From contig JAFIES010000083.1 in the NCBI GenBank assembly GCA_020832415.1, positions 1 to 53,246 on the forward strand: a DNA stretch of 53,246 bases, in the 5' to 3' direction. The notes under the pieces are model-generated. The model did not search any database and was not told where the DNA came from. It saw nothing but the letters and a program-made list of their open reading frames with translations. The number at the start of each line of letters is the position of its first letter. Position 1 is the stretch's first letter. This stretch comes from Balneolaceae bacterium (GTDB lineage Bacteria > Bacteroidota > Rhodothermia > Balneolales > Balneolaceae). The translations under genes and the position numbers were made by a program. This document shows positions 6,012-42,518 of this stretch, in pieces.

Positions 6012-7556
6012 TTACTGAACATCCCACCACATGCGAGTTGTAAACTCATCTGGTCCCTGCCGTGAGACTGCCGCTTCGTAATTTGAGCGGTTGTTTGCAG
6101 GTTCCTGCACCGGATAGATAATTCTTCTTGGAATGGTTCCGCCGGTTACATTACCCGGAGCATTAACAGGAGTTAGCTGAGGATAGCCAGTTCTTCTCCA
6201 GTCTGCGTAAGCCTCATATCCATTTAAGAACAGGGCGATCCATTTCTGGATGGCAATCTGCTCTAAATCTGCAGGAGGCACATTTGCAATATAATCCTGT
6301 ATTTCACTGTCTGGAATGTTTAGTCCATAAAGACTAAGGTGCCTCATTGCAGCATCTATTCCAGCCTCATAGTGAGTTTGTGCATCGCCAGGAACATTCC
6401 ATCCTCTTGCAGCTGCTTCAGCCAGAACAAACCGTACCTCAGCATAAGTCATGAACAGATATGGAGAATCGTATGCTGCCATGTTTTCTCTGTTTGGCAT
6501 GGCATAGCGGGTTTCCGGGTCACCAAGGCCCCAGTTATTGGAAATAGCCGAACCATCAAGCCCATTAGGTACACCACGATACTCAAGCGGATCTGTGGTT
6601 GCTACATTGCCATCACTATCGTAAACACGTGCAATTCTGGTAAGACGCGGGTCAATGTTTGCATTTCCATTTTCTGCATCGAGGAGGATATTTACAAATG
6701 TATCACTCATTGCAAATCCATGGCCAGTAAGGCCGAAATTCTGAAATACTGAACCAATGGCATTTCTGTTTATTCCTGATTGATCAACATGATTCACCCA
6801 TGCAATATCATCATTACTTTGCATAAGGCCACCGGCTGCGGCTGCCTCTACAGTTGCTTGGGCAAATGACGGATCTACTTCAGATAATCTCATACCGAGG
6901 CGGAGTTTTAATGAGTTTCCAAAACGTCTCCACTGGTCAACATCTCCGGAATAGAGAAGATCATTGCTTCCGAAGGTAAGAGGTCCTTCCGATAAGGAAG
7001 CTACTGCTTCAGTGAGTTCATTGATCATATCTCTGTAGATCTCTTCCTGAGGGTCGTAGGCTGGATTGGAAATGCCTTCTGTAAATCCTTGTCCGGCCTC
7101 AGAGTAAGGAATGTCACCATAAAAATCTGTAAGTCTGTGGTAAACAAAAACCCGCAGAATTCTGGTTTGAGCGTACATATTCACCATATCAGGATCATCT
7201 TGCACCTGGGCCATGATATCCTCAATGGTTTTTACTGTATTTGGATACATTACATTCCAAAATGCACCTGTGTACTCATTATTTATGGTGTATCTGTCGC
7301 CCGACCATCCTGTGATAGTTGATGAGAGGTGTTGAATCATGCTTGAAGCATGAATGAGGTTGCCTCTCCAGGTTTCAAATTCATCCTCTGCAGCCTGTAA
7401 TACTGCTCGTGTAAACTTGAATTGTGGGTCAAGTTGATCGGCCTGCGTTGGATTCACGTTAATGTCTGTCAAACCATCGTCGCATGCCTGAAACAGAAAT
7501 ACTGCTGCAAACAATACAATGGCTGTTCTGAAAAGTTTTTTCATGGATAATTTCAT
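6012..7556 (-). CDS. SusD/RagB-family nutrient-binding lipoprotein (first pair)
   Basis: The 514-residue lipoprotein has a hydrophobic leader ending in the lipobox LFQAC (C25), followed by DDGLTDINVNPTQ, the usual start of SusD-like mature proteins. Internal features such as YHRLTDFYGDIPYSEA and the late IALFLNGYEAYADWRRTGYP are hallmarks of the SusD-like family. It should sit on the outer-membrane surface and act as the lid of the SusC channel encoded 18 nt upstream, capturing an oligomeric ligand (often a glycan, sometimes a peptide). The substrate is not predictable from sequence alone. It is the last gene of the operon, followed by a terminator. Confidence 0.93.
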   Translation of the reverse strand: MKLSMKKLFRTAIVLFAAVFLFQACDDGLTDINVNPTQADQLDPQFKFTRAVLQAAEDEFETWRGNLIHASSMIQHLSSTITGWSGDRYTINNEYTGAFWNVMYPNTVKTIEDIMAQVQDDPDMVNMYAQTRILRVFVYHRLTDFYGDIPYSEAGQGFTEGISNPAYDPQEEIYRDMINELTEAVASLSEGPLTFGSNDLLYSGDVDQWRRFGNSLKLRLGMRLSEVDPSFAQATVEAAAAGGLMQSNDDIAWVNHVDQSGINRNAIGSVFQNFGLTGHGFAMSDTFVNILLDAENGNANIDPRLTRIARVYDSDGNVATTDPLEYRGVPNGLDGSAISNNWGLGDPETRYAMPNRENMAAYDSPYLFMTYAEVRFVLAEAAARGWNVPGDAQTHYEAGIDAAMRHLSLYGLNIPDSEIQDYIANVPPADLEQIAIQKWIALFLNGYEAYADWRRTGYPQLTPVNAPGNVTGGTIPRRIIYPVQEPANNRSNYEAAVSRQGPDEFTTRMWWDVQ

Positions 7557-7574
7557 AATTAGCAGTTCCTTTTT

Positions 7575-10500
7575 TTAGAATTGGAGAGATATATCGAACC
7601 CGAAGCTTCGTGTACTTGGAAGCGTGGCATGCTCCAAACCCTGTGCGTTACCTGTATTAATTACAGATTCAGGATCAATGTTTGGAGTATTCTTATGAAT
7701 GAGCCAAAGGTTGCGTCCCACGATTGAGAATGATGCACCACTCAAACCAATACGCTGAACAAGATCTACAGGCAACGAATAACCAATCGCGAGAGACCGA
7801 AGTTTTACATAGCTGGCATCGTACACAAAATCTTCACTAATGTTTGCTCCAATGTGGCTGTAATACACTTGCGGATCTACTTCTGTAGTGTTGGTATCTC
7901 CATCTTGTGTTACACCTTCTCCAACAACGCCTCCACTAATGAAGTTATCATCAGAATCGAAGGTTGCAGTTGATCGGCCGGGAATCGTGTTTTTATGCAA
8001 TCCTGTTTGATACATCTGTGCATTTGTAAGAGAGTAGATTTGCCCACCGCTACGAATGTCTACCAAAGCAGTCAGAGACATATTTCTAAACGTTACATTG
8101 TTTGAAATACTTCCTGTCCAGTCTGGTGTGTAGTTTCCAAGAACCACATTGTTATCGAATAATGGCAAACCGGAACTGTCGTGAACTACCCGCCCCTGGG
8201 AATCACGCTGGTAAGCACGCCCCACAATCTGGCCGTATGGCTCTCCAACACGGGCATCAACAAACGTGTGCTGAGAACGGCTAATTCCCAATCTGAGTGA
8301 CTCCAGATCTCCTTCGAGTGAGACTACTTCATTTCGGTTTCTTGCATAATTTACGCCAATATCCCACTGCAGGTTTTGTGTTACTACCGGGCGGCCGGTT
8401 ACTCGCAGCTCAATTCCACTATTATCAATTTCACCGGCATTAATCACACGGCTGTCAAAACCGGATGCATTAGATATAGTAGTAGCAAGAATCTGGTCAC
8501 TTGTAGTTTGCTGGTAAACAGTTGCATCCAGCCCAAGACGACCATCAAAGAAACGTAAATCAATCCCGGCTTCAAGTGCTGTAGTTGATGTTGGCTTGAG
8601 GTCAGCCAAAGGAATTTGACCGCCACTTATACCACCATGAGCAGCATTGCCGCCATCTTTGGTAGGATGACCACCTGAAATAGCATAAGTAAGGCTTAAC
8701 TGATATGGATCTGTATCACCACCTACACTTGCCCAAGAAGTTCTGAACTGACCATAGTTAAACCAGTCGTTGGTTAGACCAAGCGCTTCAGCAAAACTAA
8801 AGCTCAGGTTAACAGATGGGTAAAAATATGAATTGTTATCACTTGGCAGCGTAGATGACCAATCATTTCTTCCTGTGATTTCCAGGAAAACAAGGTTTTG
8901 ATAATCAAACTGTGCTGAACCAAACAGTGAGTTTACCTGCTTCTCATTGAAGGCGTATCCAACACTTCTTGAACTTTGAGTGGTGTTTCCAATGGTAATC
9001 AGGTTGGGAATGATAAATGTATTTCCACCATAAGACACCTCTTCAAAAGTTTCATAGGTTCTTGCAGCACCAAAAGTTGCATTTACACCAATATCACTGG
9101 TTATGCTTCTTTGCAGCTGAAAGAAAGCATCTATGTTATCTTCCCGCACATTGTAACTCTGCTCGTTCATCTGGCCATTAATAACCCATGGTGTACCTGT
9201 GTTATCCCATGTGGTTCTTCTCAGATTATAGAAATCAGTACCTAATCTTGCCTGGAAAGAGAGCCAGTCAAAGATTTCGTAATTGGCCCGGACAAAACCA
9301 ATGAGTCTTCTGCGGTCATCTTCATTTCCATTTTCATTGAAACCCCAATATGGATTTGGCCTGAATGCGCCTGTATTATACGGTATGTGGTTACCCTGCT
9401 CATCCTTGTAATTCTGCAGTTGACGCACATCAAGTGTAAGCGGCATATAACTTAGAGAAAGCGCAGGGTTTGAAGGGTTATCTGATAATTGAGGCCGGAA
9501 ATTAGTGGCTTCAATAATATAGTTGGCTTTCGCCTCAACAGTTAAATCGCCTACCCTTCTTGAACCGATAAAGTTGATATTATCCCTGTCAACAGTACTT
9601 GTCGGAATAATACCGGTGCTATTTAACCGATTAACAGACAAACGAAAACTTGAATTTTCAGTACCACCAGAAACAGCAATTGAATTAGAAATATTTGTTC
9701 CTGTATCGTAAAAGTTTCTCAGATTATCATTAACAACATAAGGCCTCATTTCACCATCAAATTGTACTACTTGCTGACCTTGAATTGGCTCACCCCAACT
9801 TGCTGTTCCAAAATTAACAGCTTCCGTTTGAGTTCTAGGCGCTCTTCCTCGTGAGCCCATTCCAAACTCTTCCTGCACCTCATCATATCCAACAAGAACA
9901 TTCTCAAAAGTTACGTTACTACGCACACTTACTGAGAATCCGTCTGTGCCGGCCCCTGATTTAGTTGTTACAATGATTGCTCCATTTTGCGCTCTTGATC
10001 CGTAAAGAGCAGTAGCTGATGGGCCTTTTAGAACAGTAAGGTCTGCAATATCATCCGGATTTAAGGCAGAAAGACCTTCACCGCCGTCAAAACCTCCCCA
10101 CTCGCCGGCTTCGCCAATAGTTCGATTATCCATTGGAACACCATCTACAACAATTAGAGGCTCATTATTTCCTGTAAGTGAGGTAACACCTCTTAATACC
10201 AATCTGGTAGAACCGGCCGGACCTGTAGGAGGTGATGTAACCTGCAAACCGGCTACCTGACCCGATAAATTATCACCAATGTTTGTGGATCGGACACGGG
10301 CAAAATCTTCTGTATTTACCCTTCCAACAGAGTACCCGAGTGATCGCTCCTCACGCTGAACGCCAAATGCTGTCACAACAAGATCATCAAGTTGACCTAC
10401 CTCCTGCTGCATTCTAATAGTAATATTACTCCTGCCATCTACATTTAGGGTTTGTGCCTGATAGCCAATAAATGAGACTCGGATTTGTACATCAGCCGCA

Positions 10501-10739
10501 GAAACTGTCAAGCTGAATTCTCCATCTGGATTGGTAACCGTTCCGGTTTGTGTACCAACTTCAACTATGTTAGCTCCCGGTATTGGATCATTGGTTTCGC
10601 CATCAACAACCTGTCCTGTTATGTCGAACCCCTGCGCAAATGCAGAGTGCGGCAAACTGATTGCCAGGCATAGCAAAAGGCTCAGTAAGCCCACTGCTTT
10701 TCCTGTAACTTTAAAGATTTGATTGTACGGAATGTGCAT
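7575..10739 (-). CDS. SusC/RagA-family TonB-dependent outer-membrane transporter (first pair)
   Basis: The 1054-residue protein has a signal peptide ending near AFA-QG. A carboxypeptidase-like regulatory domain follows (about residues 39-115, with GQVVDGETNDPIPGANIVEV), then a TonB plug domain (about 118-265, with VVTAFGVQREERSLGY and PLIVVDGVPMDN). The rest is a long beta-barrel ending in the terminal aromatic residue F. It imports oligomers across the outer membrane using TonB energy, with the SusD partner directly downstream. The length is normal for the family. Upstream lie a Bacteroidota-type promoter and a LacI-type palindrome, which suggests sugar-responsive control. It is clearly paralogous to the second SusC in this window, also 1050-1054 residues. 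Confidence 0.95.
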   Translation of the reverse strand: MHIPYNQIFKVTGKAVGLLSLLLCLAISLPHSAFAQGFDITGQVVDGETNDPIPGANIVEVGTQTGTVTNPDGEFSLTVSAADVQIRVSFIGYQAQTLNVDGRSNITIRMQQEVGQLDDLVVTAFGVQREERSLGYSVGRVNTEDFARVRSTNIGDNLSGQVAGLQVTSPPTGPAGSTRLVLRGVTSLTGNNEPLIVVDGVPMDNRTIGEAGEWGGFDGGEGLSALNPDDIADLTVLKGPSATALYGSRAQNGAIIVTTKSGAGTDGFSVSVRSNVTFENVLVGYDEVQEEFGMGSRGRAPRTQTEAVNFGTASWGEPIQGQQVVQFDGEMRPYVVNDNLRNFYDTGTNISNSIAVSGGTENSSFRLSVNRLNSTGIIPTSTVDRDNINFIGSRRVGDLTVEAKANYIIEATNFRPQLSDNPSNPALSLSYMPLTLDVRQLQNYKDEQGNHIPYNTGAFRPNPYWGFNENGNEDDRRRLIGFVRANYEIFDWLSFQARLGTDFYNLRRTTWDNTGTPWVINGQMNEQSYNVREDNIDAFFQLQRSITSDIGVNATFGAARTYETFEEVSYGGNTFIIPNLITIGNTTQSSRSVGYAFNEKQVNSLFGSAQFDYQNLVFLEITGRNDWSSTLPSDNNSYFYPSVNLSFSFAEALGLTNDWFNYGQFRTSWASVGGDTDPYQLSLTYAISGGHPTKDGGNAAHGGISGGQIPLADLKPTSTTALEAGIDLRFFDGRLGLDATVYQQTTSDQILATTISNASGFDSRVINAGEIDNSGIELRVTGRPVVTQNLQWDIGVNYARNRNEVVSLEGDLESLRLGISRSQHTFVDARVGEPYGQIVGRAYQRDSQGRVVHDSSGLPLFDNNVVLGNYTPDWTGSISNNVTFRNMSLTALVDIRSGGQIYSLTNAQMYQTGLHKNTIPGRSTATFDSDDNFISGGVVGEGVTQDGDTNTTEVDPQVYYSHIGANISEDFVYDASYVKLRSLAIGYSLPVDLVQRIGLSGASFSIVGRNLWLIHKNTPNIDPESVINTGNAQGLEHATLPSTRSFGFDISLQF

Positions 10740-10894
10740 ATGTTTAACCGTTTTTTTGCTGGTTTATGTGATTACTCGATTAAGCCTTTAAGTATTGTAA
10801 ATTGCGTTTGCAGCTGGATTCTTAAGTGTTAAAGCTTACTTATGATGGTGCTTTTACAACTTCTGCTAATAATTTACAATTTGATAATACCACA

Positions 10895-10924
10895 CAAGTA
10901 TACACATCTGTTAATTAGAAACAA
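10895..10924 (-). promoter_or_regulatory. Putative Bacteroidota-type promoter of the first susC gene
   Basis: Read on the minus strand, TTG (10922-10924) is followed after 19 nt by TATACTTG (10895-10902), close to the TAnnTTTG -7 element. The -33 box directly abuts the operator palindrome at 10925-10942. The implied 5' leader is about 150 nt long. Confidence 0.5.
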
Positions 10925-10942
10925 TTTGGAACCGGTTCCAAA
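10925..10942. promoter_or_regulatory. LacI-family-type operator palindrome upstream of first susC
   Basis: This is a perfect 18-bp palindrome, TTTGGAACCGGTTCCAAA. The inner 14 bp TGGAACCGGTTCCA differ at one position from the cre/LacI-type consensus TGWAANCGNTTNCA, with the diagnostic central CG. It touches the -33 box of the proposed susC promoter. The same 14-bp core stands upstream of the second susC gene, so both pairs probably answer to one regulator. No LacI-family gene lies in this window. Confidence 0.7.
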
Positions 10943-11020
10943 AGTATTATTAAGTTCATGAATTGCTTCCTTTACATGTATTGTATTATTAATAGAAAGC
11001 TTTAAACAGTCCTTGAAACA

Positions 11021-11053
11021 AAAAAAGCCCGGTTTTAATACCGGGCTTTTCTT
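11021..11053 (-). terminator. Rho-independent terminator of the second susCD operon
   Basis: A 10-bp stem AAAAGCCCGG (11023-11032) pairs with CCGGGCTTTT (11041-11050) across an 8-nt loop, with A/T runs on both sides. It lies about 55 nt past the stop of the second susD-like gene. The rest of the 365-nt gap 10740-11104 holds the first susC promoter, the operator and a long leader. Confidence 0.85.
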
Positions 11054-11104
11054 CTTAAGTGCTGATCTTTATAACTATATCTGCTGTAATAGCATACTCG
11101 TTAT

Positions 11105-13015
11105 TTATGGTTGTTGTGCCCACCAAAGAGGAGTTAACACTTCGTCACTTCCATTTAAATAACCAACTGCCTGTTGATATCCAGCTGGGTTTTCGTTAGA
11201 CAACCTTGACGGATATCGCAATCTTTGCGGGAAAAATGAAACCCTGCTCTCCATAAAGTTACCCTGGTTCAGTGCGGGCAGATTTGCAATAGGAAGTTCA
11301 ACCGATGGATTTTCAAAAAACGGTAATCCTAACCTTCGGTGATCGTTCCAAGCCTCAAGTGGCAGGTATGGAAGCTGAGCAAGATATTTCTGGGTGATTA
11401 TTTTTGTAAGGTGATCGTTCTTCACGTTACCGTTTGCATACAAATGATTGTCAGGGAATGTAAACTGAAAGGTACCCTCTTCATTTGTGTAACCATTGAT
11501 GTATCTCTTGGTAACCGATGCGGGTGGCTCAGTTGTATGATCCCAGCTAACAGATGTGCCCGTACGGTTGAAGCTTTCAGAACGGAGATATTCATCCGCA
11601 AACTGATCAACTCCGAAAAATGCAAAGTTAGACCTGATTCCCTGCTCATAAGCATCTTTTGGGCTCATCGGAACACTCCAGCCTCTTACTCCTGCTTCTG
11701 CGATAAGGAAGTGTGTTTCCCAATCAGCAAAGAAAATTCGTTCACCGTTGCCTGTTCTGAACCTTTGGCTCAATCGGGGTATTGTACCAACATAGGCTGC
11801 AAGTTGATTTCTCGGAGCTTTATCTCCCCAATTACCCAAAGGAGTAGCATTCCAATGGCCGGTGGCATTAACTGTCTTCAAAACTTCACCATCTTCGGCA
11901 ATCAGGTTTCTTTCCACGGTGAACGCATCCTGAGTCCATGATGGGAAGTGACTGAAGTTCGAGTTATCAAACCAACCCGGAACAATAAACGCCTGATATG
12001 CACGCGGATCTATTGTGTGCGGTAAACCATCTTTCCAGAATCCCGCAGAAGGATCGTTTGTATGGGTTCCAAGATGATTTTCCAGCCTCAGCCCTAAATA
12101 GTTCTCCGGCTTGATGTGATCGTGCATACTTGCAGGAACCTGCCTGTCAGATGTAATACCTCCAAGCCCTAAATAAAGATTATTTAATGTTGCTGAAAGT
12201 GGCTGAGCATTCCATTCTCTCGACATAACTGCGGTCAGATCATCCCAGCCACCACCTTCAGGAACAGAAAATGTATGGTCGGCATTGGCAATAATCAGGC
12301 CTGAAGCAGCCTCTTCGAAGTGAGCCTGCGCTACTGATGGTGCTACTTCGGACAAACGCATAGCTAACCTCATTCGCATCGAGTTTCCGTAACGAACCCA
12401 CTTTTCAAGGTCAAAACCGTAAGCTTTATCAAATCGATGAATGCTTGAGGGCACCGGAGTTCCGAGATCTATACTGTTAACGGCATCTCTCAGCTCATCG
12501 AGCATAAAGTTATACACTGTTTCAACATCTCTGAACTCAGGATTTTCACCCTGAAATCCATCAATCGGCATTGGCCCGAAATTATCGGTGAACTCACTCA
12601 TAAGGTAAGCGCGCCAAATTCTTGCAACCTGAATAAGGTTACTTGTGTAAGCAAAATTTACACCTTCCTGAATTTGTTCTTCACCAACGGTTACAGCAAG
12701 GTTAGCAGTGCGCAACCAACGTGATAATGAACCATAGTAGTCATTAGTCCAGTCATCGTTATAGCCTCCCAATGCCAATGATCCGTTTACACGATGCTGC
12801 CGGGCTGCAGTTTTCCAGTAAAGAATAAATGCACGCTCGGCGTCGTGAGGATTCATTTGGGCGCCGGTAATCGAAGAGTTGATAAAGTACTCTACCTGAA
12901 CCTGATCGAAGCTGGCGGCTTTAGGATCTGTATTCACATCCAAAAAACCGTCAGTACAGGAACTTACTAACAGAATAACCGCAAAAATTAGCGTAAGATA
13001 TATAAGTTTCTTCAT
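11105..13015 (-). CDS. SusD/RagB-family nutrient-binding lipoprotein (second pair)
   Basis: The 636-residue lipoprotein begins with a leader ending in LVSSC (C20), followed by TDGFLDVNTDPKAA, typical of SusD-like proteins. Conserved family landmarks include MSEFTDNFGPMPIDGF and the late region around YLAQLPYLPLEAWNDHRRLG. It is about 120 residues longer than the first SusD here, with extra sequence in the middle (about residues 240-400), so its ligand is probably different. It sits 11 nt downstream of its SusC partner and should form the surface lid of that transporter. The ligand is unknown. Confidence 0.92.
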   Translation of the reverse strand: MKKLIYLTLIFAVILLVSSCTDGFLDVNTDPKAASFDQVQVEYFINSSITGAQMNPHDAERAFILYWKTAARQHRVNGSLALGGYNDDWTNDYYGSLSRWLRTANLAVTVGEEQIQEGVNFAYTSNLIQVARIWRAYLMSEFTDNFGPMPIDGFQGENPEFRDVETVYNFMLDELRDAVNSIDLGTPVPSSIHRFDKAYGFDLEKWVRYGNSMRMRLAMRLSEVAPSVAQAHFEEAASGLIIANADHTFSVPEGGGWDDLTAVMSREWNAQPLSATLNNLYLGLGGITSDRQVPASMHDHIKPENYLGLRLENHLGTHTNDPSAGFWKDGLPHTIDPRAYQAFIVPGWFDNSNFSHFPSWTQDAFTVERNLIAEDGEVLKTVNATGHWNATPLGNWGDKAPRNQLAAYVGTIPRLSQRFRTGNGERIFFADWETHFLIAEAGVRGWSVPMSPKDAYEQGIRSNFAFFGVDQFADEYLRSESFNRTGTSVSWDHTTEPPASVTKRYINGYTNEEGTFQFTFPDNHLYANGNVKNDHLTKIITQKYLAQLPYLPLEAWNDHRRLGLPFFENPSVELPIANLPALNQGNFMESRVSFFPQRLRYPSRLSNENPAGYQQAVGYLNGSDEVLTPLWWAQQP

Positions 13016-13026
13016 GACAATATATA

Positions 13027-16000
13027 TTAATATGATATTGTTAAATTAAATAGATAGGTTCTGGATGTTGGAGGTGCTGCATTCTCAAAACCCAGTGCAT
13101 TTGTTCCGGTGGCAAATACTGACTCAGGATCATAACCATTAAGGTTACTTCTGATCATCCACACGTTATTTATAGTTGCTCCAAGCCTCATACCTTGAAT
13201 CGGCAGGCTTTCAATTATCCTTACCGGCAAATCATAATTTAGGTTGATATATCTGAGCCTTACGTTTGTGGCATCGTAGATATTTGCCTCGTTGATTCCC
13301 AGGTTGCCTGTTCCCGCAACTACCGTCCAGTATTGCTGTTGTGTTATCTCCGTGGTGTTTGGGCTGAATGATCCGTCACCATTTTGCACAACCCCATCAA
13401 CAACCATGTTATTTCTTTCACCACCCGGTGCTGTAACAGCAGCCATTCCCATCAATTGCATTTGCTGGTTGGTTTGTGAGAAAATCTCACCGCCAATTCT
13501 TGCATCAACCAGGAAGCTTAAACGCACGCCTCTGTAAGCAAAGGTATTGGTTATGCCCATAAGAGCCCTTGCTTGTTGATTTCCTAAACGTACGTTCTGC
13601 TCAACTTGAGGAAAGCCGTTAGAGTCAACAATTTTCTGGCCAAAGAATGGGCTGCTTTCATCATCAACACGCAGGAAGCCTGAACCATAAATTTCGCCAA
13701 ACGGCCTGCCGGTTTCTGCCCGGATGGAAAGGTTATCGAAACCCCCAAGCCTGTAGAAATCTACATTCTCATGCAGTTCAATAATTCTGTTTCTGTTTGT
13801 TGAAAAATTGAAAGCTGTATTCCACTGGAATGAGCTGTTTTGTAAAATATTCGCATCAATCATCAACTCGGTTCCTTTATTCTCAATGTCGCCGGCATTT
13901 ACAAGCCTTGCGCTGAAACCACTAAGCGGATCCATAGGGATAGGAATCAACTGATTGGTTGAGTTGGACTGATACCAGGTAAAGTCGATACCAAACCGGC
14001 CTTCCAGAAAGCGCATGTCTATACCCAGTTCTCTTGAAGTGATTAGCTCACTTTTTACATCAGGGTTGAACAAGGTTCCTCTTGAATCAGCAGTGGTATT
14101 TCCAAGTGGATCGTTCCCAATTGCAAACGTATTGAACAGCTGATATGGGCCAAGGGCATTACCTACCTGCGCTACCGAAGCTCTCACCCGGCCAAACGTA
14201 ATCCATGATGGCAATGACATATCCATTGTGCTCAGCATATCGGTAAATACCACTGAAGCACTAACGGAAGGATACATGAATGAGCGGTTATCTCTGCTAA
14301 GGGTAGAGGCCCAATCATTTCTAAGGGTACCTTCAAGATAGATGAAATTATCCCAGTTAAACTCTACCATACCATACATAGAAGCAATTCTCTGCTCTGA
14401 AAAGAATTCGTTAACAGATGGGTTGGTCGTGCTGTTATTCAGCGAGAAGAGGTTTGGCACTTCAAGCTGGCCTGCATTAGATGAAATACCTTCACTCTGC
14501 TGCATCATGATATTACCACCAAAACTTCCAGAAACTCCCAGCCTCTCGATCAGGTTATCCTGGTTTGCACGAATCAGGTAACTGAAATTATGTTCGTGGA
14601 AGGTGGTTTTACCCATAGAAAATTCACCATTCGGTGATAGAGGGCCACCGGCAAACATTCTGTTATCTGAGCTTGTGGTATACATATCAGAACCAGCAGT
14701 TATTTCTGCTCCGACCCAATCAGTAAATTGATGGCTGAGTGTTGCCTGCAGAATAAAGCGGTCTCTTGTATCTCTGTTCAATCTGTTTTCCGCTGTCCAA
14801 TATGGGTTTAACTGACTGCTGCCACCATACCATATCATATTGCCATTTTCATCAACAGATCGTTCAAACTGCCGTATATCCATACTTAAAGGTAACCTGT
14901 ACATGGTAAAGAACGGGTTTGATGGATTATGGCCAAGAAGAGGCCTGTTTCTCGCTTCAGTATTCATATACTGCACTTTTGCATCGATAGACCAGTTGTT
15001 GTCATTACCGAAGTGAGATATTGCCCTTGTTGAAAGATTGGTTCTATTTAACTCTGTACCCGGTATCATACTGTTATCATCCCTTCTTGTAACAGAAGTA
15101 AAGATGGATGTGTTATCAAAACCCTGCTGATAAGATAAGCTGTAGTTTTGGCTGACACCTCTGTCAAAAAAGTTACTCACATTATCGTAGGGAGCAAGCT
15201 GAACCTGTGTACCATCCCAGTTTTGTACTGTTTGGCCTTCAATTCTCGGGCCCCAGCTGGAGTTTGATTCGTTCTCAAAAACGCCATCTGTACCCTGGCC
15301 AAAAACTGTTTGTCTGTTTGGATTGGCAAAAATGGTCTCAACGCCTATAGATGATGAAAATGTCATCCCAAGACCCGGCCGGCTCTGGCCTGACTTGGTT
15401 GTAATGAGAATTACACCGTTACCTGCACGAGCACCATAAAGCGCCGCTGCTGAAGCTCCCTTAAGTACAGAAATGTTTTCAATATCCTCGGCATTTATAT
15501 CACCAATTCCACTTCCCATATCGAGTGATGGGTTCCAGTAGTCTGTATTTTCTGCACCGGTAAAGTTATTAATTGGGATACCGTCAACAACAATAAGCGG
15601 CTGGTTATCACCCACGAGCGATGAATGCCCTCTGAGGATAATTTGAGAAGATCCTGCAGGGCCTGTGCTGGAACGAATCACCTGCAATCCGGAAACTTTA
15701 CCCGTTAATGCATTTGCAACATTTACTTCTCTGCTTTCGAGAAGTGCTTCTCCCTGAATATCCTGTATGGCGTAACCGAGGGATCTGCGTTCTCTCGGAA
15801 CTCCAAAAGCTGTTACCACAAGATCACCAAGCTGGCCAACCATCATGGATAAGCTTATCGTTACATTGCTTCTGCCATCAAGATTTACAATCTGTGGCTC
15901 GTAGCCAATAAATGATGCACGAATCTGAACATCAGGCCCGGAGACCATAAATGAAAATTCGCCATCAATATTTGTAACTGTACCTGTCTGTGTACCAACT

Positions 16001-16179
16001 TCAATTACGTTGACACCCGGAATAGGTTCACTCGTTTCGTTGTCAATAACCAGTCCTGAAACACTGAAACCCTGCCCAAAAGCAGCGTTTGGCAACAAGA
16101 AAGTTATTCCAAACATCAAACCGAGCACCACTGATACTTTTAGTATCTCACCAATCTTTTTATAGTAAGAAGTGTGCAT
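13027..16179 (-). CDS. SusC/RagA-family TonB-dependent outer-membrane transporter (second pair)
   Basis: The protein has the same domain order as the first SusC. A signal peptide ends near AFG-QG, a carboxypeptidase-like domain follows (GLVIDNETSEPIPGVNVIEV), then the plug (VVTAFGVPRERRSLGY, PLIVVDGIPINN), then a barrel ending in an aromatic residue. I prefer the ATG at 16179 (1050 residues). It aligns with the MH start of the first SusC and has GGGA upstream; an ATG at 16191 would add four residues. The sequence has diverged clearly from the first pair in the barrel, so this is an older duplication rather than a recent copy. A LacI-type palindrome lies 149 bp upstream, shared with the divergent CBM9-like gene. 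Confidence 0.94.
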   Translation of the reverse strand: MHTSYYKKIGEILKVSVVLGLMFGITFLLPNAAFGQGFSVSGLVIDNETSEPIPGVNVIEVGTQTGTVTNIDGEFSFMVSGPDVQIRASFIGYEPQIVNLDGRSNVTISLSMMVGQLGDLVVTAFGVPRERRSLGYAIQDIQGEALLESREVNVANALTGKVSGLQVIRSSTGPAGSSQIILRGHSSLVGDNQPLIVVDGIPINNFTGAENTDYWNPSLDMGSGIGDINAEDIENISVLKGASAAALYGARAGNGVILITTKSGQSRPGLGMTFSSSIGVETIFANPNRQTVFGQGTDGVFENESNSSWGPRIEGQTVQNWDGTQVQLAPYDNVSNFFDRGVSQNYSLSYQQGFDNTSIFTSVTRRDDNSMIPGTELNRTNLSTRAISHFGNDNNWSIDAKVQYMNTEARNRPLLGHNPSNPFFTMYRLPLSMDIRQFERSVDENGNMIWYGGSSQLNPYWTAENRLNRDTRDRFILQATLSHQFTDWVGAEITAGSDMYTTSSDNRMFAGGPLSPNGEFSMGKTTFHEHNFSYLIRANQDNLIERLGVSGSFGGNIMMQQSEGISSNAGQLEVPNLFSLNNSTTNPSVNEFFSEQRIASMYGMVEFNWDNFIYLEGTLRNDWASTLSRDNRSFMYPSVSASVVFTDMLSTMDMSLPSWITFGRVRASVAQVGNALGPYQLFNTFAIGNDPLGNTTADSRGTLFNPDVKSELITSRELGIDMRFLEGRFGIDFTWYQSNSTNQLIPIPMDPLSGFSARLVNAGDIENKGTELMIDANILQNSSFQWNTAFNFSTNRNRIIELHENVDFYRLGGFDNLSIRAETGRPFGEIYGSGFLRVDDESSPFFGQKIVDSNGFPQVEQNVRLGNQQARALMGITNTFAYRGVRLSFLVDARIGGEIFSQTNQQMQLMGMAAVTAPGGERNNMVVDGVVQNGDGSFSPNTTEITQQQYWTVVAGTGNLGINEANIYDATNVRLRYINLNYDLPVRIIESLPIQGMRLGATINNVWMIRSNLNGYDPESVFATGTNALGFENAAPPTSRTYLFNLTISY

Positions 16180-16327
16180 AGTTTTTCCCATTTATTTTAT
16201 TTTAAGTGATGTTATAGCATTTATTCTGCTACTAAACACACCGTGCTGTCCTTTTTTTTCTTTTTTGGCATGGTGTACTAACTATAAATATACTATAAGT
16301 CCATTCATCTGGAATCATCAATCGGTA

Positions 16328-38718: not shown

Positions 38719-41700
38719 ATGAAAAGATTGCATACACATAGACACAAGAATGACTTTATAAATAAAGGTCTATTAGAATTGATTTGTAAAGCTTCGTGGA
38801 TAGCGATTATACCGGCTTTTTTATTTATGGCAAATACAGTTCAGGCTCAATCGTTTGCCGGTGGAGATGGAGAAAGTCCTGAAACTGCATTTCAAATAGA
38901 AACATGGAAACATTTAGATAATGTTCGAGACCATTTATCCTCATACTTCATTCTAAACAACAACCTGGATGAAAACACAGACGGATATGATGAGTTTGCC
39001 TCTGAAACCGCCAATTCCGAAAATGGCTGGATTCCAATAAGAAGTGGTAGTGGTATTGGCATCATACTCAAAAGCTTTCCAGGTAATGGCGCCGGTATTG
39101 AAACTGATGACGAAGAAGATATATCAGTGTGCTTCCGTGGCAACTTCAATGGAAACGGAAACACAATTAGTGATCTTTACAGTTTGAATACATTTAACAC
39201 AGGCCTGTTCGCCTGTATTGAAGATGCTGAAGTGTATGATCTTACATTAAACAATATTGATGTTACAGGCTTTATTGCTACGGGTGGCTTAGCGGGACAG
39301 TCTATCAATAGCTCCATATCAAATGTATCTGTAAATGGAACCGTATCAGGTTTATTTTTTACAGGTAGTATTGTAGCTGTCAATGAGCAGGGAGTAATAA
39401 GCGGCTCTTCAAGCTCAGGAGAGATTCTTGCTGATACAGGTGCCGGGGGAATTGCAGCAGTAAATATCGGTACCATAAACTCATCTTCTTCTTCAGCAGA
39501 TATTTTAAATGACTTTTCAGCTGGCCCTCCTATTCTACAAAAAATGCCTGATGATTTCTCATTAGATCATTTCCCAACACTAACGTTCTCTTCAGACGAA
39601 CACGACGATGAATCTGGATTATTCGGAGGTTTTGGGGGATTAGTTGGTTTCAACAACGGTGTTATTTCCAACTCTTTTGCTACTGGAGATTTGGTTATCG
39701 GTTTTTCGGAAATAATCTTACTTAATGAACCTGCAAAACTAATGAGTAATCCCTTTGAATTGATGCAAAATGGTGAATTTTACCTGCGCCCGGATGATGA
39801 AGAACTCCAATACTCTTCAGGAGGGCTTGTTGGAATCAATACAGGCCTCATTGCGCGTTCATACTCTACAGGTACTGTTGTTAACACTGTAGTTGTTGCC
39901 GGTGGATTAGTTGGAGTAAATGCTGAATTCTCTGAGATATTATTCAAATCTATACCTTATTCAGGTGGCAGTAATTCTATGATAGATTTTGGTTTGGATT
40001 ATGGAATCATAGATTCTTACTCAGTAAGCAACGTTGCTACCGTTGCTTTTGGAGGCGGGCTTGTTGGTTATCTTATTGGCGGGGAAGTTAGAAATACCTA
40101 TGCGGCAGGTGAGTTAGAAATGTTGCCGCCTGAATTCATCTTTAAGCAAGTCGGGGAAATTGATCAAGGTAATGTTGAGGAGTTTGATTTTGAAGATACC
40201 TTTGGGGGGCTTATTGGCATAAACGATGCTCTGCTTGTGTCAAAATCTGTCGGCAGTACCTCACCATCACAGGGTGGTATTATGCTTGATGATTATCCAA
40301 ACATTGTTAACTCATTCTGGGACACACAAACCACCGGTTTCGATGTTAGCCAGGGTGGCACCGGAAAACCAACCAGCCAAATGAAAACCATCTTCACCTT
40401 CACGGATACAGATACCCCGGGACTCAACGAATCCTGGAATTTTTCTGACTTATGGACCATTGATCCCAATCCGTTTATCTCCTATCCCTATTTTGGCGAA
40501 GGTTCCGGTGCCCCGCGGCAGGATCCTTCACCGGGCCTGGAAATCTCCGATGAATTCTTATCAAGCCGTATAACTGTTCCATCAGGCCAAACAACCGTGA
40601 TTGATGATACAGCAATAATCCTCGGCATTGATACAGATATTGATATTACCGGCATAGGGCCTAATGGGGTGTTTGAACTGAATGGCTCTCCACTTTCAGT
40701 TGGCGATGATCCAACAAGAGGTGAAATTGAGAGCGGGATGCTTACGTTTAACCCAGATGTTGGCAGTTCAAAACTAGCATACGGTTACAATTACTCTTTC
40801 CTTGAGTACAGTACTTCAGCAGGGGATTTTATTCTGCATATAGACCTTGCTGCCCTTGCCATACCGTATGAAATTGCAAACGGCTGGATACTTACTGCCT
40901 CACCTTCTATTGATCAGGAAATAGGTGATTTTCTATCAACAAATACTACGGTTGGCTTCCCGGGCTCAACAAATCCGTCCGATCCATTCCCATCAGTATA
41001 TACGCTCGATCAGGAAGCATACGACTGGGTGGCAGCATCAAGTTCATCACAACAAATGGAAGTTGGTAAGTCACTATTAACTTTTATCTTCCCGGAAGAT
41101 ACGCCAAAAGCAGAAATGTTCCATTCACCGGGGCCATGGCTGCCTCTTGATGGTACATTTACGTTTGATGAGTTTCTTGGTTATGATTTAGATCAGGGTG
41201 AGTTTGGTGACAGCCATTTCCTCATTGGCAACCCGCACCCGATTGCCATTGACTATTGCCAAATGCTGCTTCGGGAGCCAACTCTCGCCAATTCAATCGA
41301 TATCTGGTTCCCGGAAGCAAATGATGGAAATGGAGGCTATGTAAATTACGGATGTTTCCTTGTTCAAAAAGAGTTCTCTACTTCATCGGGTGAACTTATT
41401 CCATCTCTCTTTTTCGTAGAACCACTTATGGGTTTCTGGGTGAGAACACTGGAGGAGAATCCGTCCCTATCTGTATTGGAAGAGGATTATGTTTCATACG
41501 GTGAATTTACACTCTTAAAAGAGGATAAGTTAGGGCTTGAGCCTCTCACACTTGCACTGAAACATAATGACCGTAACTACGCGAACCTGCTTCATGTGTT
41601 ACTCTCAAGTGAAGGTACATTTGAACTTGATGCATTCGATGCGATTAAATTGAGCTCAAAGGGACTTGCTGAAAGATATCTCTCTTTCTTTGCAATGGAT

Positions 41701-42321
41701 GAGGGTGGCAGAAAATTTGCCACAAGAAGCCTGCCCGATACCTTTACGGATGATATACAGATACCGCTGGCTATCGAAACAACAGAGGCCGGAAGCTATA
41801 CTATTGAATGGAATGTACCGGCTGAATATGCCGGCATAAACTTCTCCCTGCGTGATAATCATACAGGTGAAGAAGTGGTACTTAGAAATGGAATGAGTTA
41901 TACTTTTACTCTCTCTGATGATGAGACAGATGCTGTTGCTGATAACTCTGCAAGAAGTATTGGAGACATTTCATTGAATAAAGAAGCTTCATCAGTTGAA
42001 CCGAGATTTATTCTTACTGCAAGTATGTTTGGGAATGGAGGTCCAGATGAGTTACCTGCAGCTGTAGCCCTTAGCCAAAACTATCCAAACCCGTTTAACC
42101 CGAGTACAATCATACAGTACCAACTTCCGCAAACTTCACATGTTTCCCTGCAGGTGTTCGACATGGCAGGGCGGCGTGTAGCCCAATTGGTAAACGAACA
42201 GATTAGTGCCGGTACTCATACAGTTACCTTCGATGCAAGCAACCTTTCGAGCGGAGTTTACATGTACAGATTACAGGCAAGAAGCACTACTCTCACAAGA
42301 AAATTAACCGTAATTAAATAA
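38719..42321 (+). CDS. Large T9SS cargo protein with GLUG repeats and sorting domain
   Basis: The 1200-residue secreted protein has a long leader ending near VQA-Q. The first half holds GLUG-type repeats, seen as GGLAGQSINSSISNVSVNGT, GGLVGINTGLIARSYSTGT and GGLVGYLIGGEVRNTYAAGE, which form a beta-helix-like adhesin stalk. A middle region (about residues 610-1080) has no family I know. The last 85 residues are a classical type A T9SS sorting domain (LSQNYPNPFNPSTIIQYQLP, DMAGRRVAQLV, GVYMYRLQ, LTVIK). It should be secreted by the type IX system and attached to the surface, probably as an adhesin or matrix protein. Its stop codon shares one base with the start of a small downstream ORF (TAATG). 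Confidence 0.9.
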   Translation: MKRLHTHRHKNDFINKGLLELICKASWIAIIPAFLFMANTVQAQSFAGGDGESPETAFQIETWKHLDNVRDHLSSYFILNNNLDENTDGYDEFASETANSENGWIPIRSGSGIGIILKSFPGNGAGIETDDEEDISVCFRGNFNGNGNTISDLYSLNTFNTGLFACIEDAEVYDLTLNNIDVTGFIATGGLAGQSINSSISNVSVNGTVSGLFFTGSIVAVNEQGVISGSSSSGEILADTGAGGIAAVNIGTINSSSSSADILNDFSAGPPILQKMPDDFSLDHFPTLTFSSDEHDDESGLFGGFGGLVGFNNGVISNSFATGDLVIGFSEIILLNEPAKLMSNPFELMQNGEFYLRPDDEELQYSSGGLVGINTGLIARSYSTGTVVNTVVVAGGLVGVNAEFSEILFKSIPYSGGSNSMIDFGLDYGIIDSYSVSNVATVAFGGGLVGYLIGGEVRNTYAAGELEMLPPEFIFKQVGEIDQGNVEEFDFEDTFGGLIGINDALLVSKSVGSTSPSQGGIMLDDYPNIVNSFWDTQTTGFDVSQGGTGKPTSQMKTIFTFTDTDTPGLNESWNFSDLWTIDPNPFISYPYFGEGSGAPRQDPSPGLEISDEFLSSRITVPSGQTTVIDDTAIILGIDTDIDITGIGPNGVFELNGSPLSVGDDPTRGEIESGMLTFNPDVGSSKLAYGYNYSFLEYSTSAGDFILHIDLAALAIPYEIANGWILTASPSIDQEIGDFLSTNTTVGFPGSTNPSDPFPSVYTLDQEAYDWVAASSSSQQMEVGKSLLTFIFPEDTPKAEMFHSPGPWLPLDGTFTFDEFLGYDLDQGEFGDSHFLIGNPHPIAIDYCQMLLREPTLANSIDIWFPEANDGNGGYVNYGCFLVQKEFSTSSGELIPSLFFVEPLMGFWVRTLEENPSLSVLEEDYVSYGEFTLLKEDKLGLEPLTLALKHNDRNYANLLHVLLSSEGTFELDAFDAIKLSSKGLAERYLSFFAMDEGGRKFATRSLPDTFTDDIQIPLAIETTEAGSYTIEWNVPAEYAGINFSLRDNHTGEEVVLRNGMSYTFTLSDDETDAVADNSARSIGDISLNKEASSVEPRFILTASMFGNGGPDELPAAVALSQNYPNPFNPSTIIQYQLPQTSHVSLQVFDMAGRRVAQLVNEQISAGTHTVTFDASNLSSGVYMYRLQARSTTLTRKLTVIK

Positions 42322-42332
42322 TGGAGCGCCCA

Positions 42333-42464
42333 ATGAATATCAATCAGCCTGAATTATCGAATGATCTGAACAGCAAAAAACTTTGGGTATCCCCTGAAGT
42401 TCATGTTCTGCCAATTGAACAAACCAACCAGCTGCCTCCGCCACAGCAGCCGGAACCATCTTAG
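42333..42464 (+). CDS. 43-residue leader-like peptide downstream of the T9SS cargo gene
   Basis: I favour ATG 42333, which has GGAG at a good distance; an ATG at 42321 overlaps the stop of the T9SS gene and would give 47 residues. The protein reads MNINQPELSNDLNSKK, LWVSPEVHVLPIEQTN and QLPPPQQPEPS. The W..PEV..L.I..T segment resembles the leader pattern of some RiPP precursors (including lasso-type leaders: aromatic-xxP, a hydrophobic spacing, Thr before the cut site). The short Pro/Gln-rich tail would be the core. No B, C or other maturation genes are in the window, so the biosynthetic idea is a hypothesis. A chaperone-like or adapter role with the upstream cargo is an alternative. A strong terminator follows. 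Confidence 0.6.
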   Translation: MNINQPELSNDLNSKKLWVSPEVHVLPIEQTNQLPPPQQPEPS

Positions 42465-42487
42465 TTTTAGATCACTTAACATTCCAG

Positions 42488-42518
42488 AGGCAGCAATATC
42501 ACATTGCTGCCTTTTTTT
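42488..42518 (+). terminator. Terminator after the T9SS cargo and small-peptide genes
   Basis: A 10-bp stem AGGCAGCAAT (42488-42497) pairs with ATTGCTGCCT (42503-42512) across a 5-nt loop, followed by six more T. It lies 24 nt after the peptide's stop codon, so the peptide is inside the transcript. Confidence 0.9.

Follow-up and report, generated by a model that had tools for sequence, protein, structure and literature searches.

Precursor-like peptides encoded behind T9SS cargo genes in a Balneolaceae-related genus: candidate linear RiPPs with enzymes in trans

Introduction

The described systems closest to the peptides reported here are the phosphorylated lasso peptides of the paeninodin type and the linear polyphosphorylated peptides (LPPs). 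Paeninodin-type systems (PadeA/PadeK, ThcoK) combine a [Y/W]xxPx[L/V/I] leader, a Thr at −2 and a C-terminal Ser with a discrete RRE, a B2 peptidase and an HprK-like kinase; the sections of PMC9266682 on the kinase describe PadeK as the kinase that phosphorylates the paeninodin precursor on its C-terminal Ser, and this site as conserved wherever kinases of this sort are found. For LPPs, the biosynthetic sections of PMC13381572 propose that an RRE and an HprK-like kinase make linear phosphopeptides without a cyclase. In Bsf-type kinase lasso peptides, according to the passages of PMC10368454 on the enzymes, BsfB1 speeds both kinase and peptidase. Among prochlorosins, many precursors scattered over the genome are served by one enzyme set, as the relevant passages of PMC10783134 put it.

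Here we analyze a 53,246-nucleotide stretch of a Balneolaceae genome (the window) that encodes a short precursor-like peptide behind a T9SS cargo gene (Table 1). The family to which this peptide belongs shares the paeninodin-type features listed above, but no cyclase was recognized, its cores are short and lack a fixed ring acceptor, and its precursors are dispersed behind T9SS cargo genes, with enzymes in trans and RRE and B2 on different contigs. LPPs, as portrayed in those sections of PMC13381572, have YxxP leaders with a FETxxS stretch, are phosphorylated at core Ser3, are cut by a signal-peptidase-like enzyme, and lie in compact clusters reported to be restricted to Bacillota, whereas the window family has WxxP leaders with an invariant Trp and no FET stretch, a predicted phosphorylation site at the final Ser, a predicted B2 cut, and a dispersed, T9SS-coupled arrangement. 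The HprK-like kinase motif and its spacing, and an RRE that helps kinase and peptidase, are points in common with the Bsf type, which differs by its cyclase, its phosphorylated Ser3 and an Ile at −2 in the passages cited. The scattered precursors recall prochlorosins, which are, however, lanthipeptides made by ProcM and for which those passages mention no surface proteins.

Dispersion and T9SS coupling thus set the family apart from its closest kinds. A search of open-licence PMC papers found no published description of T9SS-coupled RiPP or lasso-type precursors or of lasso peptides in Balneola, and no such coupling is described in the part of PMC8831229 on the Amoebophilus lasso cluster; the coupling of such precursors to T9SS surface proteins appears to be new.

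Table 1. Features of the window and leader-only ORF loci elsewhere
Feature	Coordinates	Strand	Basis and remarks
T9SS cargo gene paired with the peptide; encodes 1200 aa with GLUG repeats and a sorting domain at the C-terminus	38719..42321	+	Pfam Por_Secre_tail 45.4 bits (cut-off 27), Glug 36.6 bits
T9SS C-terminal sorting domain of the cargo	42082..42312	+	PF18962, 50.7 bits
47-aa precursor-like peptide gene	42321..42464	+	translation, family, selection; alternative start, ATG at 42333
W22 to T35, W..P.V..L.I..T, leader segment predicted to bind the RRE and to be recognized by B2	42384..42425	+	W, P, T invariant in 35 A2 rows; function by analogy with lasso leaders
Predicted core Q37-S47 (QLPPPQQPEPS), C-terminal Ser the predicted phosphorylation site	42429..42461	+	T-x-Q 41/41, final Ser 39/41; cleavage and phosphorylation predicted
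Terminator-like hairpin 3' of the peptide	42486..42514	+	12 pairs, 5 G-C, T-rich tail; present after both orthologues too
Leader-only ORF locus	L047:5870-6140	-	
Leader-only ORF locus	L126:9200-9430		
Leader-only ORF locus	L127:8900-9130		
Leader-only ORF locus	L128:8700-8930		

Results and discussion

A peptide family under purifying selection

The small reading frame, whose translation is MERPMNINQPELSNDLNSKKLWVSPEVHVLPIEQTNQLPPPQQPEPS, is confirmed as a genuine gene. A preliminary description of the window, made from this one sequence, had singled it out by a stop-start overlap, a GGAG site before a second ATG and a leader-like W..PEV..L.I..T segment, and the sequence bears out all three: in TAATG the cargo stop overlaps the first ATG of the peptide gene (distance −1), GGAG occupies 42323-42326, 5' of the second ATG, and WVSPEVHVLPIEQT matches the pattern.

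We sought relatives in 58 genomes, namely the window's genome (G000) and 57 relatives. Orthologues 98% and 82% identical to the window peptide are present in two other genomes (G002 and G004), and G000 itself holds eight further matches at E ≤ 10. With a profile of 20 members (A1), 12 of the 58 genomes gave matches at E ≤ 2.2e-4, 41 in total, and the family counts below rest on all of these; the window's Balneolaceae-related genus accounts for 40, spread over 11 of its 28 genomes, and the sole remaining member belongs to G047, from another family of the same order. By a 35-row profile (A2), which leaves out six of the 41 (one identical copy, two contig-edge fragments, both G015 members and G011:C5b), G000 has 10 members at E ≤ 0.001. 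The identical fragments G013:C76 and G013:C157 may be one gene. Close relatives occur at five loci of Balneolaceae metagenome assemblies.

Members follow the pattern W..P.I..L.I..T-x-Q..PP..S, in which W, P, T, Q and one P of the PP pair are invariant across the A2 rows. All 41 carry T-x-Q, which places a Thr at −2 and agrees with the earlier suggestion of a RiPP-type leader with Thr before the cut site. The last residue is Ser in 39; the others are the G047 member, which ends in Thr, and G011:C5b, which has no PP core and no stop to end its frame. Both G015 members end in Ser and lack PP. Predicted cores span 9–17 residues (median 11; 41 members). The NCBIfam model of paeninodin precursors (NF033524) weakly matched seven of 35 members (best E 0.0027), and the window's member gave no match.

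Pooled over six pairs, including one paralogue pair from a single genome and one partial pair, we counted 41.0 synonymous changes over 153.8 sites against 39.0 non-synonymous changes over 545.2 (pN/pS 0.27; binomial p = 1e-8). Instead of the missing homologues or many stops in relatives that the preliminary description had set against its own reading, homologues exist and the family's reading frames are under purifying selection.

Beyond the genus, a 395-genome sample of the phylum yielded three matches in two genomes at E ≤ 0.001. There the peptide adjoins ORFs resembling, by eye, an HprK-like kinase, a B2 or an asparagine-synthase-like protein, and no T9SS cargo was seen within ~1.5 kb on either side of the three matches. 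The G047 look-alike ending in Thr (L154:1543-2183) lies 350 nt behind a T9SS cargo, and none of RRE, B2 and kinase finds a strong match in G047.

Peptide genes follow T9SS cargo genes

Upstream of 31 of the 41 members, the stop of a same-strand frame that ends in a T9SS sorting domain lies at a distance of −1 to 382 nt (median 86); orthologues are counted among them, and these are therefore not 31 independent coupling events. The search of related genomes proposed in the preliminary description thus found the W..P pattern beside T9SS cargo, and its view that the peptide is encoded together with a large surface protein holds for the window, whose cargo carries Por_Secre_tail, and for the family. 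Eight of the 10 members without an upstream cargo stop have <500 bases of contig upstream, which leaves two true exceptions: G000:C61, whose peptide gene immediately precedes the cargo gene, and G015:C60a, beside an HprK-like kinase gene.

Stop and start overlap in three of the 31 (the window gene and its two orthologues), the rest starting 15–382 nt after the cargo stop, so tight translational coupling is ruled out as a family rule. The terminator noticed earlier behind the window peptide is there as a 12-pair terminator-like hairpin. As a family trait it is not general, since terminators directly 3' of the peptide accompany 4/41 members versus 34/820 random windows. None was found in 27 cargo-to-peptide gaps, which is weak evidence given that base rate.

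The peptide-linked cargos are a distinct subset. G000 has 34 sorting-domain matches, of which 30 were fetched and 28 could be parsed; eight of these 28 have a peptide directly downstream. One extra loose pattern match behind a G000 cargo, beside L204, is by eye not a family member. Ahead of the sorting domain, 19 of the 28 cargos are alike, and in a tree of their last 480 residues (the C61 cargo scored as coupled, a 161-residue C101 fragment left out) the eight coupled cargos are split from all the others by a single branch (support 98/99; 0/500 shuffles as low). In a quick 38-row tree with other genomes, its uncoupled rows mainly from G000, a group of 22 (SH-aLRT 84) took in 21 of the 25 coupled cargos, with the C61 cargo as its remaining row; G004:C218, G025:C223b, G011:C5b and G047:C8 fell outside. 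Judged by the sequence of their C-terminal module, the coupled cargos of G000 are one clade. Their N-terminal parts vary (GLUG, cadherin/Big_9, DUF285, fn3, LDL-receptor-b), and with the C-terminal module in common this suggests a cassette of module, sorting domain and peptide carrying varied heads. The predicted fold of the module (mean pLDDT 71) gave many partial Foldseek matches, beta-sandwich and other, at low TM-score, none of them informative.

Such a clade also suits a view in which an originally functional precursor gene was duplicated together with the 3' end of an often-recombining cargo gene and most copies now do little; several copies at contig ends, as repeats do, and the coreless, stopless G011:C5b point the same way. 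We regard this as quite improbable in view of the pN/pS of 0.27, the retention of T-x-Q and final Ser across tails of differing length, and the co-occurrence with a stand-alone kinase described below.

Two further features were seen around cargo genes. Those ahead of two G005 peptides (L036:8452-13099 and L141:5864-8868) are split across several frames, by decay or sequencing error. At four of 21 loci compared (L027, L028, L032 and L040), a pair of genes of ~187 and ~700–960 aa lies ≤7 kb from the cargo; the two look like genes for a sigma factor of the ECF type and for a Ser/Thr kinase.

Candidate maturation enzymes are encoded elsewhere in the genome

No maturation enzyme genes were found adjoining the window peptide gene. 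The genome as a whole does contain candidates, in answer to the concern raised earlier that RiPP maturation genes might be missing from it. A single PqqD-type RRE (B1) scores above cut-off in G000, on contig C70 (69.8 bits, cut-off 23.4); against the NCBIfam Bacillus lasso PqqD model it reaches 68.8 of the 80 bits required. Its closest solved relatives are lasso RREs (TbiB1, PbaB1 and TfuB1) and one LPP RRE (LppB), entries 9x90 and 9x8z being named PbaB1 and LppB in PMC13381572. In a hand alignment, the position of PbaB1 Q79, which bears on the question of a Trp versus a Tyr pocket, is Glu in most of 13 RREs. The only PF13471 protein above cut-off is on contig C19 (79.3 bits, cut-off 26) and is also recognized as NCBIfam lasso_biosyn_B2 (94.8 bits, cut-off 33).

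Next to the RRE on C70 lies an HprK-like protein that scores below cut-off both in Pfam (25.7 bits against 33.3 required) and in NCBIfam (31.7 against 200). H102, G117, G120, G122, K123, S124, D140 and D141 are invariant in eight kinase rows, and this H-G-G-G-K-S-D-D motif is spaced as given for the lasso precursor kinase BsfK in the relevant passage of PMC10368454. The top Foldseek matches of the kinase model (pLDDT 72) are HPr kinases and PEP carboxykinases, at modest TM-scores. RRE, kinase and B2 are all unlinked to the peptides in G000, and the B2 is also unlinked to the RRE.

A conserved protein of ~250 residues, presumably ScpA, is encoded near the stand-alone kinase in nine genomes (G002, G004, G005, G011, G013, G019, G020, G025 and G016); in G000 the contig ends before the place of this neighbour, and the stand-alone kinase of G015 is elsewhere, beside a peptide gene. 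At that G015 locus (L152:5276-7074), an HprK-like kinase, a formyltransferase-like gene (Formyl_trans_N) and a PP-less family peptide lie in a row; a second PP-less peptide of the same genome sits near a contig end with no cargo visible.

The presence of these enzymes follows that of the peptides across the 28 genus genomes, in counts that ignore kinship and include G016 at 86% completeness. An RRE above cut-off is present in all 11 peptide-bearing genomes versus four of the 17 peptide-less ones (G010, G012, G016 and G023), a B2 above cut-off in 9/11 (absent from G002 and G013) versus 2/17 (G010 and G016), and a kinase at E < 1e-50 in 10/11 (not G017) versus 1/17 (G016). G016 and G019 have two kinases each, one in a lasso-type cluster and one stand-alone. 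In G016 the kinase of the lasso-type cluster has its full length, and the stand-alone one (L272:6280-6906, minus strand) has internal deletions relative to that of the near relative G019 (L271:7240-8230, minus strand), so that intact stand-alone kinases number 10/11 versus 0/17 (p = 8e-7, kinship ignored). The peptide-less G010 has a contig-edge kinase fragment below threshold (E 2.1e-11) beside B2 and RRE.

Between kinase and RRE, four genomes (G000, G002, G013 and G025) keep a leader-only ORF of 21–23 codons with the pattern W.KP.II.LD, which stops where a leader would continue; a GTG start was assumed in G002 and G013. In G000 it reads MDNNKTANKKSWHKPEIISLD. Between G000 and G002 it shows 8.75 synonymous changes over 11.8 sites and 14.25 non-synonymous over 51.2, and between G002 and G013 one over 12.7 and two over 50.3. 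It is either the remnant of a former precursor or a ligand titrating or activating the RRE. A W.KP stretch of another form occurs in the same gap in G004.

A titrating ligand would fit peptides that stay in the cell as regulators, their phosphorylated or RRE-bound forms gating the making or export of the cargo while the leader-only ORF titrates the RRE. The retention of that ORF in four genomes, the encoding of peptide with cargo, and the fact that no signal sequence was seen are consistent with this role, yet a leader alone would be enough for RRE binding, whereas T-x-Q, PP and the final Ser are conserved as well and B2 accompanies the family in 9/11 genomes; we consider it rather unlikely.

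Overall, the earlier interpretation is partly supported. Its genetic side (gene, selection, cargo coupling, and presence and co-occurrence of the enzymes), as established by sequence comparison, is stronger than was claimed; the conserved final Ser and its association with an HprK-like kinase were invisible to a reader of one sequence.

Ring acceptor and cyclase

The part that did not hold up is the lasso ring. The preliminary description had placed the acceptor at E9 of the core, but this residue is absent from the 82% identical orthologue (core QLPPPEQPVQS), and D or E stands at positions 7–9 in 28 of the 41 predicted cores. Gln at position 1, which had seemed unusual, is the rule in the family. 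With the acceptor not conserved, cores short and no cyclase recognized, we reject a lasso product as the default, and the label "lasso peptide" is not supported.

The cyclase evidence is as follows. PF00733 has three matches in G000, two weak asparagine-synthase-like proteins (442 and 557 residues) and, by eye, an NAD-synthetase look-alike; all three look unlike the lasso cyclase of G019, and no lasso cyclase was recognized in this genome. The G019 cyclase has no match at E ≤ 1e-10 in G000, G002, G004, G013 or G025, strong matches (E < 1e-100) in G005, G016 and G019, and weaker matches (E between 1e-11 and 1e-26) in another seven genomes of the genus, including the peptide-bearing G011, G015, G017 and G020. 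The lasso-type precursors of G005, G016 and G019 have the same W..P leader and final Ser as the family. The cyclase genes of G005 and G016 (L125:9157-11097, plus strand, and L131:6765-8708, minus strand) each have an in-frame stop, and the adjoining RRE and B2 look intact.

True lasso peptides would need a threaded core closed by an unrecognized cyclase in trans, for example an AsnB-like protein on C131 or C14. Phosphorylated lasso peptides come with just such a leader pattern, RRE, B2 and kinase, D or E does occur at positions 7–9 in most cores, and both the weak asparagine-synthase-like proteins of G000 and the strong cyclase matches in three genus genomes speak for it. Still, the acceptor is lost between orthologues, Gln would be an unusual ring nitrogen, G000 lacks a match to the G019 cyclase at the threshold above, two of the three strong cyclases carry an in-frame stop, and cores of 9–17 residues (median 11) are short for a threaded ring, known threaded lasso peptides being longer than ~13 residues. 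We judge this outcome very unlikely.

A proposed pathway to linear peptides

We favour, with moderate confidence, a reading in which the family consists of dispersed precursors of linear peptides that are RRE-bound, phosphorylated at the C-terminal Ser, cut after T-x and active at the envelope. Peptide and cargo would be made from adjoining genes, which at the window overlap and probably share one transcript. The stand-alone RRE on C70 would bind the W..P.V..L segment (W22..P25 in the window peptide), the HprK-like kinase encoded beside it would phosphorylate the C-terminal Ser (Ser47), and the lasso-type B2 peptidase on C19 would cut after T-x (between N36 and Q37). By analogy with the described systems, we infer these three steps for the family peptides. 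The product would be a linear, Pro-rich peptide starting with Gln (an 11-mer at the window), possibly closed to pyroglutamate, and no ring would be formed. That it acts at the envelope in concert with its cargo is a guess prompted by the cargo coupling.

A variant to which we give only the slightest credence would place the mature peptide, phosphorylated at its C-terminus, on the cell surface, where the C-terminal module of the cargo is linked to it or holds it; it might, for example, serve as the acceptor or the linker in a sortase-like T9SS step. The RiPP would then be a built-in part of a surface protein, with no diffusible product.

Linear peptides matured in this way would make a RiPP system without a compact cluster, its precursors dispersed and its enzymes in trans, and genome mining by cluster could be expected to overlook such a system. 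The copy-by-copy coupling to large T9SS surface proteins also gives an experimental handle, leading from one peptide, kinase or RRE to one named surface protein.

Elsewhere in the window, positions 6012-16191 (minus strand) hold two adjoining SusC/SusD-type pairs, whose SusC-like proteins are 37% identical.
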